A DNA stretch of 64,000 nucleotides from positions 14,646,666 through 14,710,665 of the forward strand of contig NC_084663.1 of the NCBI RefSeq assembly GCF_028389875.1, written 5' to 3'. The notes beneath the pieces were generated by a model. It saw only the letters and a program-made list of their open reading frames with translations, ran no database searches and was not told the origin of the DNA. Position 1 is the first letter of the stretch. The number at the start of each line of letters is the position of its first letter. Both the position numbers and the translations under genes were made by a program. The DNA comes from Rhea pennata. Taxonomy: Eukaryota; Chordata; Aves; Rheiformes; Rheidae. Shown here in pieces: positions 46,340 to 61,425 of the stretch.

Positions 46340-46376
<37 letters not shown>
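46340..46376 (+). repeat. A37 homopolymer
   Basis: Thirty-seven uninterrupted A on the + strand (T on the presumed leftward transcript). No gene-derived sequence precedes it. Confidence 0.9.
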
Positions 46377-46379
<3 letters not shown>

Positions 46380-49300
46380 ATTCACAGCATTTAGGGCTAG
46401 TTAGTGGTATTTTATATCCATGTTAGGACAACACCTCACTTGCTATGAAAGTAATTAACTTTACAGAGGTTAAGTAATGCCTTCCAAAACACTAGATCAT
46501 GGTCAAAGGTGCTCTACTTCAATGTAGACCATGCTACAAGGAAACAAAAGCTACTGCTGCATTTCACTATTCAAAGTTTACCAGTCAGACAGACCTGGTC
46601 CAAATTCCCCCTAATCCTGGATTAGCTGGCCACATAACAGCTTGCAACTTGCTCCTTTTAGTTAAAAATTTGACAGTTTAGGAGGGCACTTGCTGGCTTG
46701 TGGAAAAATCCTTTAAAGCTCTGCTACAGTCCCAACATAAGAAACACCCCCACACACACACTCCACTACCACAACACAAGCCCTGAAGTGGCATGCAAAG
46801 AAAGTTCCTGCTCTGTCCTGCTGCAGGCTTAAGCCTTGACCACCATCCTCCCATATCAAGGTGAATCTGTTGACAGTCACTGGACCTGCTCTACAATATG
46901 CAAGGAATGCGTATTCATTTAACTAGTGATCACTGATCCACAGAGATCACAGGTTTGAACAAGATGATATCAGAATTCATACAGTTAATTCTTCACTGAA
47001 CATCCCAGCTACTGGATTCCTGGCTATTTCTGAAACTAGCATGCTTACTCAAAGTTTTACTCTGTCCCAAATGAAATAAGCTCATTAAGTCTGAAATTCA
47101 GTGAAGACTTAACTGGAATTCTATTCCTTCCCAACTCTAGTCTAGTTAGTTTTGTAGACAACTATTTCTGAGTGGTAGCTAACAAGTTTCTGTCATCTAC
47201 AACTGCAGGTCAATCGAGCACTACATTATACGCTCAAAAAACATTCAAGACTTTGCATATCTGATTCCTTTAGCACGGATTGTAGCGATTCCAGCTATAG
47301 TAGCCAGCCTTTAGGAGCTGCCTCCAAAATTCCCTCAAAATATTTTTACTGTACAAAAACCAACAAACAAAAAAGTCTTAATTCTACTAACAGTTTAAGC
47401 CAACATAACTCCACTCTCCCTGCAGCTGCTTCTTCCTATTCCTGTTCAAGCAGAATCGTCTGTAAAGGCCTGCAGTGGACACAGCCATAAGAAACAGACA
47501 CCACACTATATCCTTTATAATTAGCTTTATGACAGATCTGTTATCCAACTCTACTTCCCACATGAACACTTGTGCCATCAAAAAAAGGGTGGTGCAGGAG
47601 CAAGAATGAACAGCTGGGAAGAGAGGCAGGATCATCTTTGAGCATTAGCACACTTCAAATGTTTCGGCTATGGCATTAATGCATGCTCAGATCTATTACA
47701 CTTAGTATTGCACTACTTTCTCCCCTGTGTACCCTTGAACTCTTGTCAGACCTTTTGTAAGGCTAAAGGTAAACAGTGCTGTTTAAACAACAAGACTACC
47801 AAAGACAGGCCACATATACATGCACAGACAAGCTAACATTGTGACTTGGAACAAGTCTAACTGCCGGGGGGGGGGGGGAAGTCAATCACAATGCAGTTGT
47901 TAGAAGAACTCTAGAAGAACTCTAATTCTGCAGAAATTGTTTCTTGCTCTGGTAGGCTACCATAAATGCAAGCTATATGCCTGGTTTTACCCAGTCTGTC
48001 TCCTGCAGCTCCCTTTAGCCCAATTATCTTCTAGAGAAAAGTTATGTCTTTCATCAGACTGGCTATTGGGCAAGTTCTCCACTGAAGTTTCTGTCACAAT
48101 AGTAGATGCATTTACTTTCAAATCATCCTCCTGCTCTAAGAGAACTCAGAATGCACCACAGGTCAGGCTATTTTGAGACTGCAACACTGCTGGAGCTACT
48201 GCTTTCTTGAAATCAGCCAATTCTGCTTCTCTAAGGATAGCTAATAAAGTAAGTCTTGTAACCAAAAGAATACTATGGCCTCTTTACAACTTGCATTTGT
48301 TTCTATAGCTTCATAGAAGCACAGACTCACCTGTTTAAGTACTGCTTTAATAAGCTACCACTTATATAGAGAAGTTAAAACAGTTCATTTACATCATGGT
48401 TCCCACACCAAAAATCTAGTGTCAACACGATAAAAAAAAAAATCCTCTTTTTGGTTGAAGTATTTAAAGCTCTATAGTGCCATAGTTAAACTTTATTTTT
48501 GAGTATTCTGTATGAAACACTAACAAATATTCAAATCTCTTCCTTGCAATGAGGTAAGCAACCATTTCTCATGTCACATTTACAGAATACAAGCATAAGC
48601 ACTAAAAAAGTGAAGTGTATTTCCTGATTTTCAGTTCACATTGATGTTCTTCATTTAATACACTTACAAGGAAATACAACTGCAGGTCTCAGGTCAGTCA
48701 GTACTACAAAGGATCATCGCACATGGAAAGCTCTTCCGCAACCTTTTATTACAAAAGGAGCGTTTACTTGATGTCATTTTATGCCTATAGAGGCAGGATC
48801 AGCAGAGTCACTGAAGCATTTTGTCTGATAGCCTCCCCATAACGCTAGTAGAGCTTTGTCTACTGAAAATGGTGTTAAATTCAACACAACCTCTAAAACT
48901 CAAGAATCCTGCTCTTCAGAGTAGCCTGTGCAGAACAAAATTGGTTGACGCAATGCTCAGCTGACAGCCATCACCTGACACTCAGGGTTTTACTTTTAGG
49001 AAGCATAACATACATAAAAATTAGACTTAAATAAGACTTGAAACTTGCAAAAGCTTCATAGCACATCATGCTCAATTACTGCCTCCTTTATATAGCCTAC
49101 AAAGGAAACATGTGCTGCTACTAGGCGTTTCCAATCCTGTTCCTCTACCCCCTCCCCCACTGCAACACACACATCCCCTATAGGCTATATCTAATATGGA
49201 CTACTTACAGTAGCTCTCAAGTCTCCAGTCAGCTCTTATGTAACTGGACTCCACCTCATCATTTTTCTTACGTAACACATTAAGTAGCGTCCATTATACA

Positions 49301-49904: not shown

Positions 49905-49942
<38 letters not shown>
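49905..49942 (+). repeat. A38 homopolymer
   Basis: Thirty-eight uninterrupted A, the longest homopolymer in the window, about 0.8 kb left of the likely leftward start sites. True length is uncertain because of sequencing slippage. Confidence 0.9.
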
Positions 49943-49945
<3 letters not shown>

Positions 49946-50472
49946 GCTCAACTCCTAAAATGGGTGGCAATAATACACACATAAAAGAATACTGATCCAC
50001 TTCTTCATACAGAAATGCTGCTCACATAAAGCCATCAACAGCTTTCACTTTTCCACTTTCTTCTCCCGTGTACCCCCCAGCAAAGTAACATTTAAAATAC
50101 AACATCCCACTCAGAAGAACAACTCTGCATACAGTCTGTACATTGGCCTCAGCTGTTTTAATGGAGATCATTTAAACTGAATCTTCCAGTAAATTAGCCC
50201 GAGGAAGCCAGCCTGCGCGTAAGAAAGTGCTCTTATACATGAGAAGGGGGAAGCCGAGAGAGAAGACCGAAGCGGGATCTGCGTTAGTAAAGGCGGCAGC
50301 CGCGGAGGCCGCGCAGCACCGCCTCCACGCCCGAGCGGAGCAGGCAGGCGCCCGCCGGAGACTTTCCCTTGCCGTGGGTAAAGCCTTGCGCAGAGAGGGG
50401 GCGGAATGGAAAGCTTCCCCAAGAGCAGCTACACCCTGGAGATGGGTGGAGAGAAAGGAGAGAAGCGAGAAC

Positions 50473-50496
50473 CTTCCTCAGCAACAGCTACACCCT
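50473..50496 (+). repeat. Second copy of a 24-bp box (first at 50414-50437)
   Basis: A 24-bp box ending in CAGCTACACCCT occurs at 50414-50437 and again 59 bp later at 50473-50496, identical at about 20 of 24 positions. This is a small local duplication inside the CpG island. Confidence 0.6.
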
Positions 50497-50561
50497 CGTG
50501 CATAAGGTTAACGGGGGGAGGGAAGAGGGAATCAACGCGGCAACGACCGTATTGTGCGGCG

Positions 50562-50584
50562 GGGGGAGGGGGGGGGGGGGGGGG
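50562..50584 (+). repeat. G-run, strong G-quadruplex candidate
   Basis: G6-A-G16 or longer in the middle of the left half of the CpG island, immediately left of likely leftward start sites. It can supply four G-tracts without any loop constraint. Run length is prone to assembly error. Confidence 0.75.
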
Positions 50585-50661
50585 AAGCACGGACTCTCCC
50601 GGGCGGCAGCCGCCGCCTCAGCCAGCTTGGGCTGCAGCCAAACCCCGCAAGAATGCAACGC

Positions 50662-50726
50662 GGTCACATGACCTCCGGCGGACGTGCAACTCCCTTCCCT
50701 CTCCAGGGAGACCCTGCGCCATCTTG
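50662..50726 (-). promoter_or_regulatory. E-box and minus-strand YY1 site near leftward start
   Basis: GGTCACATGACC (50662-50673) is a USF/TFE-type E-box with symmetrical flanks. Forty-five bases to the right, GCGCCATCTTG (50716-50726) reads CAAGATGGCGC on the minus strand, a good YY1 consensus. In housekeeping promoters YY1 sites usually lie just inside the transcript in the sense orientation, so this points to leftward starts near 50.7 kb or slightly to the right. Confidence 0.45.
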
Positions 50727-50985
50727 CACTGACGCAGTTACAAATGCAGGCGCAAAGTTGCTCCTCTCTCGCTCTTCCCTCGCTCCTCTCCTCACAGCCC
50801 CAGCATTATTTGGGAAGGGGAAGCCACGGCCCTCTCCCGCTTTCCTTTTCACGAGGTCTTCAGGGATGCCCTGCCCGTGAAGTCCTCCCTCGCGCGGGGA
50901 TCATGGCGCCCGTTTTCTCCCTTTGCACCAGCCTCCCCCTACAGCTCCCCAACCCTGCCCAGCTGCGGCTGCCCCTGCTGCAGGA

Positions 50986-51077
50986 TGATGTCAGCGCCAG
51001 CCAATCAGAGCGCGCCGGGGCAGCCCAGCCAGCCCGCCTATTGGCTTCCGCAAAGCTCCCTCCCCCCTCCTGACTCA
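50986..51077 (-). promoter_or_regulatory. CRE-like, double NF-Y and AP-1 module
   Basis: TGATGTCA (50986-50993) is followed 8 bp later by CCAATCAGAG (51001-51010), then an inverted ATTGG (51040-51044) and TGACTCA (51071-51077). Paired NF-Y boxes with a CRE-like site are typical of the 60-250 bp upstream of CpG-island start sites. This spacing suits leftward starts in 50.7-50.9 kb. Factor names are by motif only. Confidence 0.5.
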
Positions 51078-51196
51078 GTCCCCGCCGCGGTTCGCTGCGG
51101 AGACGCGGCCAAAGCAGAAGTGGGGGGAGGGGAATAGGAGGGGAAGGGAAAAAAACCCTACACAAAAAACCGACAACCAAACCCACCAAGACGCCA

Positions 51197-51206
51197 GCCG
51201 CCATTT
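51197..51206 (-). promoter_or_regulatory. Minus-strand YY1-like site
   Basis: GCCGCCATTT reads AAATGGCGGC on the minus strand, a second YY1 match oriented for leftward transcription. It may mark an alternative leftward start. Confidence 0.35.
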
Positions 51207-51997
51207 CGCGCAACAACAGGCAGAACCCGAGCGAGCAGCCCCAGCCAAGCGCCCTAAGGAGAGAGAGAAAGAGAGAAACAGAGACACACGCATAGAAGAG
51301 TTAGACAGGAAAAAATACCCATAGACTCCGCCATGATCACAAGACGTTTAATCACCCCCCTCCTCCCTCAGACTCAATGCCCCATTACAGCCGCCTCCTC
51401 TGCGTCCAACCAGCTAGCAGATCCCTTCACCTCGGCTCCCTCCTGCCGCAGCAGTAGCTGTTTAGAGCCCCAAACTCTCTCTGCCCAAGGTGTGGGGGGA
51501 GGCTAGTCTATGGCGCTGCTGCTAACTGCTTCTCCAGTCACCCGATTGTGGCGGCTCCATCGAGGCAGGGTAAGAGCTGCCAGCCCAGCTTTTATCTGGT
51601 GCCCCGAGTTTGCGCACTGAAGGAGGCTCGCTCAGCCCCTGGTGGGCGTCGAATGAAACCCCAGCCGCCGCCTCCCCTCCCTCAATCAGCCGTATCGCTG
51701 GAGGGGCTGAAGCCGGGCAGGGAATGCAGGGCGGTGTGCGGGCAGAGCCGGAGCGGGGAGGGGATACGGGGTAAGGCACGGCAGCTCCCTGCAAACAGGA
51801 GAGGCTGCGTCTGTCCCGAAAGGCGGAATGAGCCTCTCGCTTTGCCAGCTCTCAGTGGTCCAGATAAAAGCAGTCCGTACCTGCTAGGTGCCATTCCCTA
51901 GAGGGGAAACTAGAGTCATTCACTGCTCCTCTCGTTCCCTGGAGAAACGAAACGCCTTCAGCGAGCGTTGTTTCACGCCAGCACTCGCTTTAAGGGG

Positions 51998-52015
51998 AAA
52001 AAAAAAAAAAAAAAA
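51998..52015 (+). repeat. A18 run within CpG island
   Basis: A run of 18 A then CAAAAAAC interrupts the GC-rich island between its two halves and divides the leftward-oriented from the rightward-oriented motif groups. Confidence 0.8.
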
Positions 52016-52676
52016 CAAAAAACTCTTTCCCTGTTTCCCACTTGCCTGCTATGAGCCTTATACGCTCCGGGGAAGATTTTCAGCCTGAAGCGTCTATTGA
52101 CAGAAGAGATTCACTCAGCCCCTCCATGTCGCCCTGAACAGGATCAGTCAAACCTCTCGCTCCCTCCCCTTTTTCGTTCGCCCCCTCCTTCCCCGCCCCT
52201 GAAATTAGTTCCTCCGAATGTGGGATCCAGGGAGTCTGTCCGGCTGTCCGTATGCTTTTTGTCGCGAAAATTTACTCCTCGGGTTGAGAGAAAGGATGGA
52301 CGTGAGGAGGAAGCCGGGCAAAGGCGGGGGGGGGGGAGCGGGAGGAGAGGACAGACGTGCAGCGCAGCTGCCCCAGAGGATGCAGTTCTGAGTCAGACAT
52401 CCTCCCGCTCGCGCTCGGACTCCCACGAGAGCACAGGGGACGGAGCCCCCGCCCCTCCCGCGCAGCCCGCGCCTCGAGAGCTGCGGGTCGCCCCCAGCAG
52501 CAGCCCAGGCAGCACCCGCCCCACTCCCCCGCACACCTCCACGCCGTCCCCCCTGCCCAGCCACTGCTGCAGCCCAGGGTCTCGGGACCCAAGGCGTTTA
52601 CTCTAACAAGCGAAGAGCTTTTGTAAAATGGACACTGGGGGCTTGGCGGGTGCAGACTGCGCTCCAGCCCACAAGC

Positions 52677-52687
52677 AAAATGGCGGC
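52677..52687 (+). promoter_or_regulatory. YY1 site for rightward start
   Basis: AAAATGGCGGC is a perfect YY1 consensus on the + strand. A minus-oriented GCCATTTT (52769-52776) lies 82 bp further right. YY1 sites in this orientation usually lie just downstream of the start, suggesting rightward starts at about 52.6-52.7 kb. A TGAGTCA AP-1 site at 52389-52395 would then be upstream. Confidence 0.5.
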
Positions 52688-53098
52688 TGTTTGGCTTCGC
52701 CTTGGTAACCCTGCCCCTGCCAGGCGGGGCGGGGAGCCCCGTGCAGGGGGAGGGAGGGGAGAGTGGACGCCATTTTCCCAGAGAGAGGCAGTGACATAGA
52801 AGGGAGCGTAGGAGGCTGGAAGGAGGGAGACACGGGAGCAGCGGCGGCAGCGGGGTTTGTACGTAGGTCCCAAGGCAAAGGCGCTTCTTAGCTGGTCCCT
52901 GTAGGGTTTTGTGCATCGAGCTCGTTTTGGGGGGAGGGGGGTCTCCTCTTTCCGTTTTCTTTCTTCTGGCAGAGTCTGCTGAGGGTTGAGTCCCGCCTAG
53001 GGTAGGGGTATTCGCAGTGGGGCTGTTGCATTGTTTTGGTTGGGGTAGAAAAGGGGCTCAGCTGAGGGGTCCTGCTGCCTGGCCTGTGACCATTACAG
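52680..53098 (+). other. Probable first exon (5' UTR) of rightward gene
   Basis: The right end is fixed by a consensus donor: CCATTACAG|GTGAGTCC with intron start at 53099. The sequence to its left is GC-rich, CpG-containing and has no long frame opened by a well-placed ATG, so the exon is probably untranslated. The left end is inferred from the YY1 site and could differ by 100-300 bp. Downstream DNA switches to T-rich, intron-like composition. Gene identity is unknown because no coding exon is visible. Confidence 0.5.
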
Positions 53099-54266
53099 GT
53101 GAGTCCTCGGTTATTACTAAGGTATTCTGCTGTGGGTGCTTTGGGGAAGGGGGTGTCAAAAAGGGACTGAAATGTGATGGGGAACATTTTGATATCGTCT
53201 TTTAGAGAATGACTCCTTTCCCACTGAAATGTATTTAAATTCTGTTTAAGTTGCCTTGATTTTTCTTTCTCATTTTGTAGGGTTTGGTTAAAAAATGGCA
53301 GGGTGTCGCTATATCTTGTGAATATGGCGGGTTACTGTAACTAGAGGAGCTGAGGAGAATTTTTTGGCAGTTATGCCAGATTTGTGCATTGTGCTTGGAA
53401 AAAGAGCCAGAAGAAGCTATTATGTGACAATATACCTTTCCTTGGACTCGAGGTTTTAAGAACGGGTTTGCGTGTTATTGGGACTGCGTATTGAGTTTTG
53501 TGAAGCTTAGGGAAATCCATTCTGTTCCTTCATCCTGTATATATTTGCTTTGTGGTACTAAAATGGCTCATTATAGGCCTAATCTCTCTGCTTTCCACAC
53601 CCCCGCCTCCTTTCCTCCCTGTCTGCTAATATCTCTGCTTCATAGTGTAACCTGGACAAACGGCAAACAGTCTAAAAGTGTTTCTGTGCCATTTTTTTAA
53701 GAGGATCATTCTTCCCACCCCTCTGTCTTGAGATTGTAAGTAGTTATATTAGTGCATCCCTTGTTTTAGTTTCTACAGCTGGCATTTGTGTTGCTTGGGT
53801 GGCATATCTTCATCTTTTCCTAAAAAAAAAAAAAATGTGGAGCAGACCCTATTGCAGCAGACATAGGGAAGGAGAAACAAACGGTTCACTGTGTAGTACT
53901 AAATAGGGTAGAGAAACATAATATAGCTTGATTATAAAGGTCCTGTATTCCCCCATACACAGCCATTAGGGAATATGCGGTGGCTAAAAGCACTGAGGTC
54001 TCTAACATGTAGTATATTTCATTTTATTAAAGGCAGAACTTTAGTACTTCATCTGGATTTAATGTTTTAGTCTGTTTATTTACGTTATTTTAGAGGAATT
54101 AATAATGAAACATTTTTGTTATTCAGGGCTCAGATCAGAGAAAAAAAAGATATATCTCTGGCTGTACTTATAATACACAGTTATTTGGTTTTAAACACCA
54201 TACTTCTAAAGTTACTTTTTAAAAAATGTGGAGCAAATTTTTTAATTTCCCTCTTTTGTCCTTTAG

Positions 54267-56081: not shown

Positions 56082-58723
56082 TCACAGATCTGTTTTAAGG
56101 AGACAATATTACTAAGGAAATACTAGCCTTATTTTTTTAAAACACTGAACTACTTTGGTCTCAATTGTTGCAGTAGGGTCTGTTCATGAAGATGAAATAA
56201 TCTTTTCCCCAAACCAGCCCTCCTCCAACAACCTACTCACAAAACTACTTAGAAGAGATAAGGCTTGAAATCGCAATTTCTTTTTTAAAAAAATATTTCC
56301 ATTTTACAAACATTGTTACAAATGCCATTTTCTAAATATTATAATAATCTGGACTTTAGTCCTAAAAACATTTATGTATCTTTAGCTGTTCAGATCTGCT
56401 GGAAAAATCTGCTTAACTGTCATAGCTGAATGCATTTGGGGAATTTTTTTGGCCATCTGGGAAACTTCAGAGGAAAAATAATACTAGCTTCCCCTCCTAC
56501 CCCCCCGCCAACTGTAAGGAAAACTACCAAGATTTGGACTACTGTTAGGGGTTGTATTACTTTATATCTGTAGTTCAGTTTCGGTACCTACAACTGAGTT
56601 AATATTCTGTTGGAAAGCGACGGAAATACAGAACTTGGTGTCAGATTGAAGGTTTTAGCATATCTCTAGGCCTGTTCTCAGTATGATTTAAACAGAGTCT
56701 TAATATTACATCTGTAGTAATAGGAACTTTGGTATGCCTATTTGTGGGACTTAGTTAAGTAGTAGTGTAAGTAATTTTAGAATTGTGCCATTGTTCTTAA
56801 TAGACTAGTGTAAATGAAGGCTTAATTAAAATATTTTACTGTTGCCATGAAACATTCTGGCAAAATGGAATGAGGGCTAGATCACTAAAGATGTAAAATA
56901 ACTTTCTTAAAAGCCAATTCAGACTTCTGGAGAGAGTCTAAGCTGTTTTATTCATCTGTCACAGATACAAATGTGTATTTGTGAATCTCTCAAAAGCAAA
57001 TTTTGTTGGTCTATGTTTTTGAAACAGGTATTGTTTTTAAATATTTCAATCATACAAATAATAGTTTTGCCTCATTGCTGAAAATGAAACTTAATTTTTT
57101 GTGTAGAGCTGCCTAACTTGTTTCAGCATCTGTAGAATATGTATTAAGGAGGGGAAAAAAAAGGATTTTTATATATTTTTATATATTACAGAGCATTCAA
57201 AAGAATGTTTATGGTATTAAGCTATTGAATAGTGTAACATGAATGTTTCTAATTACATGAATGTTCGCGTACTTTTGTGTTCTTGTTCTTACTAACCAAA
57301 AATCTTACCCACAGAAGCTAAGCTAATCTCTTTCAGGATCCATAATTCTGCTCATGACCTTCATTTTGCAAAAAATGCTGCTATAATCACTTTCAAAGAC
57401 TAAACTATTGTTACTTTTGAGGCATAACAAACAAGTTTACTTAAATAAAGATTGTCAGGGTTTCATATACTTGTTAGTAGGTACTGAGATTATTTTTCTT
57501 TCCTTTAACAGCAGATCAACATAAAAGATTCGTAAATGAAAGTGGAGATAACTTAAGCTCTGCAGCTTGTTACATCTTAATAACTGAGGTTATCTGTAAA
57601 CCTTTGAAGATAATTTTGTGTGAAGTATTTCTTTAACATGTCTGACAGCTACTTTTGTTTATTTTTTAAATTAAAATATTTAGTAAGAACTGTGCTAAAT
57701 CACGGTGCCTACTAAAGTTGTGTGTTTCAGAAGCACAAGTGAAGAATAGGTTGAAGTAGCACAAAAGCGACATCCTGTGCAAGTAAAACTTCTGTTAATG
57801 TTTTGTATGTTTTATTGAAAGAGCTATCTTCCTTTCACGTGAGACTTCATATGCTGTTCAGATTGAGATGCACTGTTGTAAAACTTAAAAGCCTTGTAAG
57901 AGACCAGAAGTTTTGCAAATTAGGCTTGATATGTGAATGCCAAAGTAGTATTTAAGATTGTAGTTTTAAAATTTACTTCTAAGTATTTTCAAAAGATGCA
58001 AATATTAAAATGTCAAAGCACAAGTTCAGCTTTAGGAAAGCCTCTTTTTTTTGCTTTTTTTTTTCTTTTCTTCCCTTTTCCTCATGCATAGTAATGTTTT
58101 GTGTCTTTATTTGTGCCCTCATAGAATGTACATTATCAGTCACTTTTACATTGTTATCCAAATAATAAATTGCCTTCAAGTTCAAGGAAAAGATATGAGT
58201 AGGTTTTAATGATGCTTATATATTTATATTGCAACTTAAAACATAGGAGCTATAATCTGTTGTGCATTGTTGTTTATTCATGTCTTTCACAAATAGAATA
58301 CTATTTTCATCATTTTATGTATTGTCTACACTTAAATTTATATACAGAATGATAACTTTGCATCTTTAAACCTGAGGAGCTCAGAATATTACTCTTTAAA
58401 TCTTCCAAATATTGACAAAATTTAAATCTGACTATTTTTAGAAATACTCATCTTTCGCAGTGTGTGATGCTCTTATTTTGCCTAGAGGAGACAAAATCAT
58501 CTAACTCCTGATTTGTATGGTTATAACAGGACTGTGTCTAAGACTGTATCACAAGACAGCTGATATTCAAAGTCTAGACAGTTAATCCCATCTTAACTGT
58601 TGGTTTAAAGAAACTTTTTCAGTGAGAAATGTTTTTAGTATGTACTACTTAAACTGAAGGTGAAGGCCTGAGAATTACAGCACCTCATTTAAAGTGTTTT
58701 GGGGAGGGTACAGAGATCACACC

Positions 58724-58852
58724 TTCATTTGGTGTGTGAAGGTATGGTTTTAGAACTGGGAAAGAAACATGAAGAAAATATGTTTAAAATAAACATATTT
58801 TCTTCATGTTTCTTTCCCAGTTCTAAAACCATACCTTCACACACCAAATGAA
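58724..58852. repeat. Perfect 63-bp inverted repeat with 3-nt loop
   Basis: The left arm is 58724-58786, the loop is AAA (58787-58789) and the right arm 58790-58852. I compared the arms base by base and found no mismatch; the first mismatch is just outside, at 58723. Arms begin TTCATTTGGTGTGTGAAGG and end AAGAAAATATGTTTA on the left side. RNA from either strand would fold into a 63-bp perfect stem. It could be a recent template-switch mutation, a foldback insertion, a small-RNA hairpin, or a sequencing or assembly foldback artefact. It lies in the presumed rightward intron. Confidence 0.95.
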
Positions 58853-60488
58853 AGTTTAAGAACTTTAATTAAAAAATAATAATTACCTTATTGGTTATGA
58901 GGTTAAGTCTATTTTCAGTTGCAACTTTCATCCAAAAATAAATACATTTACATTGAAAGTAGGAAATATGAAATATCTTTTGTTTTTAAATATATGTCCT
59001 GTGACTGTGCTGTCATTAAACATAACACAGTCCCCTCCATCCGCTCCCTTCTCCTCTCTTACCCTCTCATCCATCCCCAAAATCTTAGTAAAGAACACTG
59101 GAATGTTACCAGGTTTTTGAATTGAGGGTAAAAGACATCATCTAACAACTGGAAAGAGTGAAGATTTCAATTTGAAAGATTGCAGCTTTCTCCTTTCCTG
59201 TGTTTAGATTCAAGCACACAAGTTTAACAATTAAGCGAATGTCTACGAACTTGCAAGAGTAAAAGTGGAAGCACTGTTGTGCTATTCATGCAAGCCAAAT
59301 GCCACTGATAAGACAGGGGAACTATATTTTTTGGAAACTACCTAAGTAACAGCATATCAAAATAGAAATTATTTTATCCAGAAGATCGAACTTTGAGTTA
59401 ATCTAAACAATTTACTACTTGTGTGGTAGATATCTCGTAATTACAGTAGTCTTCTATGTCTCATTATGCAGCATAGATAAGTCCCTTATTGTTTTACTTG
59501 ATCTCAAAAAAGCAGTGAAACATTTGGTTTATTGAAACACATAACTATTAAATGTGTGTATTTGTAACTGCTTATTTCCTAGAAAAGGGTCACTTCCTCC
59601 TTTAAAAGAATACCAGATTTTAAAATCGGGACCTTTCAGCGACTGAATCACCATTAAATTGTTAAATTTAATAAAAAAATTTACTCAGCTCTTTCAGTTG
59701 TAGACACAACTTACTATGCATTCTTATGGGATGTTGAGTTTATATACTTGTAGAAGTGCTTATTATTCCTAAAAAACGCTTCAAAATATAAATGTTATGG
59801 AAACAGGTGTAAATAAGATTCTCTTAGAGAATATTGAGCAAGTCATGTACACAAAATAACTTGATTAAACTTACAGGCATTTGCCACCTCACATTAGATA
59901 AAGTGAAACAACTGATGAGAAGAATGACTTAAAAGCAAAATCTATTTGCCAGGCAACTAGTTAGTTAATTAGTTTTTTCTTAACAGTTGAGTTTCTATTT
60001 AAAGCAATTTTACATCTTGACAGTGATGTAACACATTGATATCAGATAGTATTAACAAGTAGAATCTTAAATTTTACAAATCATATGGCAATATTCCCAT
60101 CAAAATGTCATCTTTTGTTTTCTCTCATGCTCCTTCCTGTACTGTGCTCTTGTATTTTACGATTCCCTGATTCTCACCTTATATAATTTTGTTAATAGTG
60201 GTATTGATAGGTCTTTGATCTGTGTGTGGTTTATTTTTAAGAAGCATGGCAGAAATTTCTTCCCCCTACTTTTTAGGTTATTAGTGATCCTAGCTAATGG
60301 CGTCAAGAGAGTGGCAGTTAGTTTCTGCTTTTTTTGTTGTTGTTGTTGGTTTCTGTGAATATCAAAACTAAAGTCAGAAAGCACCAAATTTTTTGTATTT
60401 CTCTCTGCAATAAACTAATTCTAACTCATTCTGTAGCTGTGTTTACCTTTTATTTCCCCTCTACCACTTACTCTTTTTCTCTTCCTAG

Positions 60489-60545: not shown

Positions 60546-61159
60546 GTAAGGGGAAATCTTTCCTATGTTTAATGGCCTGGCGTAAATATCTAAGGGGGGG
60601 AGATGACTTTCCATCACTACTTCAAGAGTACACAAGAAGAGCCGTCTTGGACCAGATGGAGAGGGAGGGAGCCTATGGCTGGTAGAAACTAGTTCTCCTG
60701 TATGGCAGAATCTTGTTAGTTGATTAACTGATGCCAGGTTCATACTGTTACAGACAGCTTTCTTTCCTCTAAGTAGAGTTGGTGCAATGTGCACAATGAG
60801 CAGGGTGTACTGAAGACTGTATAGCTTGATAATGGAAACTATCACTACTTTTAGCGTATAAATCTTGAATACAGTGGAGGGGGTGGATTTCTTCTTCCTT
60901 GTTGTGGATCTCAAACTTGGTGTGCCAGTTCACAAAGTGTGACCGTCTTACCAAACGTGACGGAAGTCATGTTGCACGTAGAGTTCCCTATTTAATAGGG
61001 CAGAATTATTGTAAGAATGCTAATCAACTCTTCTTCAGCTTACTACTTCTGTCTCTGTATTGGGAGTGGATTAAGTGGAAAGTAGGAAGAGGAGGGTAAT
61101 CCTGCAGTTGTTTGACTGTTGTAGCCTTGTTTCTTAAATTGGGCTAGTGATCACTGTTT

Positions 61160-61425
61160 CATAGAATCGGTAAGGTTGGAAGGGACCTCTGGAGATCATC
61201 TAGTCCAACCTCTCTGCTCAGCAGGGTCACCTAGAGCATGTTAGACAGGATCACACTCAGGCAGGCCTTGAAGATCTCCAGAGAAGGAGACTCCATAACC
61301 TCCCTGGGCAACCTGTGCCAGGGCTCCGTCACTCTCACAGGGAAGAAATTCCCCCTCACGGTCAGGCAGAACTTCCTGTGCTTCAATTTCTGCCCATTGC
61401 GTCTTGTCCTGTCACAGTTCAACTA
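61160..61425 (-). mobile_element. CR1 LINE, 5'-truncated, 3' end of ORF2 plus 3' UTR
   Basis: On the + strand the sequence runs CATAGAATCGG, GTTGGAAGGGACCTCTGG, AGATCATCTAGTCCAACCTC, the reverse complement of the avian CR1 3' UTR and its terminal ATTCTATG unit (a single copy). From 61231 to 61422 the minus strand keeps an open ORF2 C-terminus with the conserved WHRLPREVMESPSLEIFKA block and its stop codon. It is heavily 5'-truncated, as usual for CR1, and fairly young since the frame survives. It inserted antisense to the presumed rightward gene. Confidence 0.92.

Follow-up and report, generated by a model that had tools for sequence, protein, structure and literature searches.

Structure of the Inverted Repeat

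The DNA analysed here (the window) is a stretch of 64,000 nucleotides from the Rhea pennata genome, positions 14,646,666–14,710,665 of a contig of 216,929,375 bases (C1). It contains a palindrome of 129 bp, made of two 63-nt arms around the 3-nt loop AAA (Table 1). A preliminary description of the sequence had placed a perfect inverted repeat at 58724–58852, and our analysis confirmed it, with reverse-complement pairing at 63 of 63 positions. When one mismatch was tolerated in a repeat search of the window, the arms paired over 66 nt at 98% (58721–58855); beyond these arms, the flanks in the window showed scattered matches only and no extended homology. The identity had also been said to stop abruptly at both ends, which holds in so far as the edges are nearly sharp but overlooks one mismatch and the two further pairs that follow it.

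The GC content of the arms is 32% (~68% AT), compared with 37% in the 150 nt to the left of the palindrome and 23% in the 150 nt to the right. Predicted folding of the DNA at 58716–58860 gave the full stem (−72.6 kcal/mol, z −20.7). As a separate observation, the outer end of the left arm (58721–58743) contains a nested inverted repeat, ACCTTCA/TGAAGGT, of 7 nt with a 9-nt spacer, and the right arm has this nested repeat with one base changed.

Table 1. Features of the palindrome and its flanks (coordinates of the window)
Feature	Position	Strand	Remarks
Left flank	58401..58720	.	Searched stretch 58401–58723 gave one locus in the assembly
Left-arm outer extension	58721..58723	+	Mismatch 58723 vs 58853, then two pairs
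Left arm of perfect inverted repeat, 63 nt	58724..58786	+	
AAA loop, 3 nt	58787..58789	.	
Right arm, 63 nt	58790..58852	-	Exact reverse complement of left arm
Right-arm outer extension	58853..58855	-	
Right flank	58856..59200	.	AT-rich, first 150 nt 23% GC; searched stretch 58853–59200 gave one locus

Genomic Setting

No N occurs in the window or in the 10 kb around the palindrome. The bin that holds the palindrome (58001–60000) has a GC content of 31.6%, the lowest of the 32 2-kb bins of the window, and an A6 tract starts 19 nt past the perfect right arm; both are uncontrolled observations. Elsewhere in the window, a GC-rich stretch at 50001–54000 (59.6% and 51.7% in its two 2-kb bins) lies ∼5–9 kb before the palindrome; it may be a promoter or a CpG island, and it yielded no recognised coding exon. 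Uninterrupted A-runs were seen at 46340–46376 (37 bases) and 49905–49942 (38 bases).

To find candidate genes, open stretches bounded by AG and GT were ranked by human codon usage; of the 45 stretches listed, 10 were compared with Pfam. None of these 10 candidate reading frames, three of which are no more than 4 kb from the palindrome, reached the Pfam cut-off, and eight had no Pfam family at E ≤1. The other two gave weak matches below the cut-off, to SEHBP (14.6 bits against 27) and to DUF3319 (11.8 bits against 25). Human palindromes are mostly intronic and intergenic according to PMC7999016; for the present palindrome, the intronic setting is an assumption.

Rarity of the Palindrome

To gauge what chance would produce, the window was simulated 20 times under a first-order Markov model. 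The longest perfect arm in these simulations (loop 0–12) was 13 nt, with values of 9–11 nt in 18 of the 20, and a chance origin of the 63-nt arm was rejected on this basis. The next longest perfect arm of the real window measures 15 nt and lies within an (AT)n run.

For comparison with the rest of the contig, the window was combined with 20 stretches of 10 kb, giving 264,000 letters including 251 N (251 N were counted in sampled stretch L019). Rarity is only roughly gauged in this way, the stretches being 20 of 180 drawn and amounting to 200 kb of 1.27 Gb. Throughout these letters, all other perfect arms of at least 13 nt (loop ≤30) lie in simple repeats of the AT/GT type and reach at most 15 nt, and an ungapped search for imperfect or decayed hairpins (loop ≤40) returned eight further rows, all of low complexity. 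Thus, no comparable short-loop hairpin, fresh or decayed, was found in the 20 sampled 10-kb stretches of this contig. We also observed a weaker stem in the window at 49090–49190, with 29-nt arms that are 72% complementary, a 43-nt loop that places it outside the reach of the decayed-hairpin search (loop >40), and 10 nt of exact outer pairing. It is possibly a decayed hairpin or a product of chance.

The palindrome falls within the definition used in a survey of perfect inverted repeats (arms of at least 10 bp, spacer ≤8 nt), in which the longest human arm is 140 bp (PMC13155455). Judged against that maximum, an arm of 63 bp is long, yet within the range for a vertebrate genome. The words bird and Aves do not appear in the text of the survey, and no catalogue of bird palindromes was recognised, by title and opening abstract lines, among the 10 papers listed of 54 matched in a literature search on avian-genome palindromes.

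Copy Number in the Assembly

The assembly searched comprises 1,268,942,789 bases in 180 contigs. With the 129-nt palindrome as query, one locus was recovered, on both strands as expected, and the left (323 nt) and right (348 nt) flanks likewise identified one locus each. As a positive control we used a dispersed repeat at 61159–61416, ∼2.3 kb to the right of the palindrome, which yielded 4,716 candidates assembly-wide; the best 40 of these were scored, and all 40, the window's own copy included, matched at ≥93%. We take a minus-strand frame of this dispersed repeat to resemble the end of a CR1 reverse transcriptase. The search skips very common words and scores the best candidates only, so that the result for the palindrome is to be read as no recognisable second copy. 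No target-site duplication was found, the longest directly flanking match being 3 nt over the boundaries tried. Separately, an exact 24-nt pattern from the arm had 0 matches in viral_contigs, and a viral origin was rejected.

Age of the Arms

The absence of differences at 126 sites sets a 95% upper bound on age of 23.8 My for a rate of 1e-9 and of 6.0 My for a rate of 4e-9 substitutions per site per year, in a model in which two initially identical arms have evolved neutrally without conversion. If the outer mismatch is counted as one substitution in 132 sites, the best estimate over the same range of rates is 7.6–1.9 My and the upper bound 35.9–9.0 My. Rates of 1–4e-9 per site per year are typical. 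In two bird species, however, rates of 0.16–0.17e-9 are given (PMC9995274), at which the age bound becomes uninformative (140 My). The preliminary view that a perfect palindrome would not last long in neutral DNA is fair in kind but overstated, as ∼6–24 My are allowed at the 95% bound. These wide bounds mean that the perfection of the arms is by itself no proof of extreme youth. Taken as a whole, the inverted duplication looks real and unusual, is of a known mutational kind and is probably young.

Probable Origin by Template Switching

Three origins had been offered for the structure: a recent template switch or foldback insertion, a hairpin under selection and a technical foldback. The first, as a template switch or snap-back synthesis, fits best, in view of the single locus, the unique flanks, the 3-nt loop, the AT-rich surroundings and the lack of a target-site duplication, and we consider it likely that the palindrome arose during DNA replication or repair through a single local template switch. 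In such an event, a nascent 3′ end would leave its template and fold back, possibly seeded by the GTTTA-AAA-TAAAC centre. It would then copy ∼60 nt, templated by its own or by the complementary strand, and on its return to the original template one arm would have been replaced or inserted, too recently for the arms to have diverged much. The nested repeat at 58721–58743 might have aided the return switch. The outer-edge mismatch may have arisen by later substitution, or copying may simply have ended there in the first place. Repair synthesis primed by the fold-back would give an end product identical to that of template switching.

Template-switch events often generate perfect inverted repeats by reverse-oriented copying and are enriched in introns as well as close to AT-rich and poly(dA:dT) stretches (PMC7954356). 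The palindrome resembles the short-range mutations described there by a four-point model in being a local reverse-complement copy, in forming a perfect inverted repeat and in lying in AT-rich DNA. The pairing of all 63 positions, 3 nt apart, is as expected if adjacent sequence was copied without error as its reverse complement, and the palindrome and its flanks, each found once, point to an event at a single locus and not to a family of mobile elements. The palindrome differs from those events in that it is known without its ancestral state, and in length: ∼60 nt would have been copied, whereas the expected 2–3 length was set to 10 nt from great-ape events (PMC7954356). Such a length is unusual, although it breaks no defining limit, and it would place the event in the tail of the distribution or suggest a related process, fold-back priming at a break for example. 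Also counting against template switching, the lack of fresh or decayed short-loop hairpins in the 200 kb sampled means that a continuum of ageing examples is absent from the sample.

A second point of comparison is provided by hairpins of RNA genes, MIR633 among them, that are new and consistent with single template-switch events (PMC8794818). The palindrome shares with them a perfect stem, of the sort from which hairpin RNA genes are proposed to start; in contrast to them, it is known from genome sequence alone. With palindromic AT-rich repeats (PATRRs) it shares the intrinsic ability of a palindrome to form a hairpin or cruciform, but PATRRs are several hundred bp long and >90% AT (PMC7999016), whereas the present palindrome has 129 bp and arms of ∼68% AT, and no rearrangement was seen. 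The yeast Mre11 complex is reported to attack hairpins whose loops are <9 nt (PMC8053094). A loop of 3 nt is of this exposed type, which bears on instability and not on function. Our default is to regard the palindrome as neutral DNA that may be unstable and can fold into a hairpin or cruciform.

Alternative Explanations

A technical artefact of the library or assembly, such as a foldback read or a polishing error, deserves attention in that palindromes are difficult to clone and sequence (PMC4057610) and the same contig does contain N elsewhere, as in stretch L019. At the palindrome itself, both unique flanks continue and the surrounding 10 kb, like the window, is free of N. Read-through foldback normally gives kilobase arms and mirrors the flank, and such an artefact does not usually appear as a 129-bp palindrome set in a long contig with unique sequence on either side. 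We regard this explanation as unlikely.

The locus might instead be transcribed and maintained by selection as a hairpin, its 63-bp stem being processed by Drosha or Dicer to small RNAs or edited by ADAR. The predicted RNA fold of the surrounding 201 nt (−109.4 kcal/mol, z −17.0) is in keeping with this. To our knowledge, described pre-miRNAs look different from this perfect and symmetric stem with its loop of 3 nt, and no match to Rfam at the gathering score was obtained in the whole window, although a new gene need not match a curated family. At relaxed thresholds, 381 bases gave 47 Rfam rows, 46 of which overlap the stem; the best of them (E 1.9e-18) reached 83.4 bits, where the gathering score is 135. 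The families in these rows have no relation to one another, many are matched on both strands, and each row falls short of its family's gathering score, indicating that the rows reflect the stem and not kinship. Membership in a described RNA family was rejected accordingly. Natural long hairpins do give endogenous siRNAs in mouse oocytes, where expressed ones induce robust RNAi, so that a role in the germline is still conceivable; in normal mouse 3T3 cells, by contrast, very little siRNA arises from hairpins of >400 bp terminated by a loop or by long single strands (PMC6391682). Within the present data, what bears on selection as a hairpin is the structure itself, in favour, and the missing curated family match, against, and we judge this explanation to be quite improbable. 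A more novel reading is a newborn hairpin-RNA locus still in its perfect-stem phase, in which one template switch would have made the 63-bp double-stranded RNA stem in a transcribed region and the stem would already yield small RNAs or ADAR-edited double-stranded RNA in this species; this strikes us as very improbable.

Insertion of a foldback element or a palindromic, MITE-like mobile element can be entertained in that some derivatives of DNA transposons are near-perfect palindromes. However, neither multiple copies with common ends nor a target-site duplication was found: the palindrome matched a single locus in an assembly in which the same type of search readily recovers a dispersed repeat. 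This combination makes origin from a mobile element very unlikely.

It is equally doubtful that the structure is an old quasi-palindrome whose arms have been repeatedly homogenised by arm-to-arm conversion. Template switching is able to homogenise the arms of inverted repeats or to extend their identity (PMC8604942, PMC3820800), but the sequence outside the 66-nt arms contains no diverged homology, a trace that an old, partly corrected quasi-palindrome might show.

Significance

The palindrome alone changes no general picture. Its kind is already known from great apes and from work on the origins of hairpin RNAs (PMC7954356, PMC8794818). If the reading as a template switch is correct, it would be a clean and unusually long case of a one-step hairpin-forming mutation in a bird genome. 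Such a case may be of use in testing how long perfect palindromes persist and whether new stems feed RNA genes.
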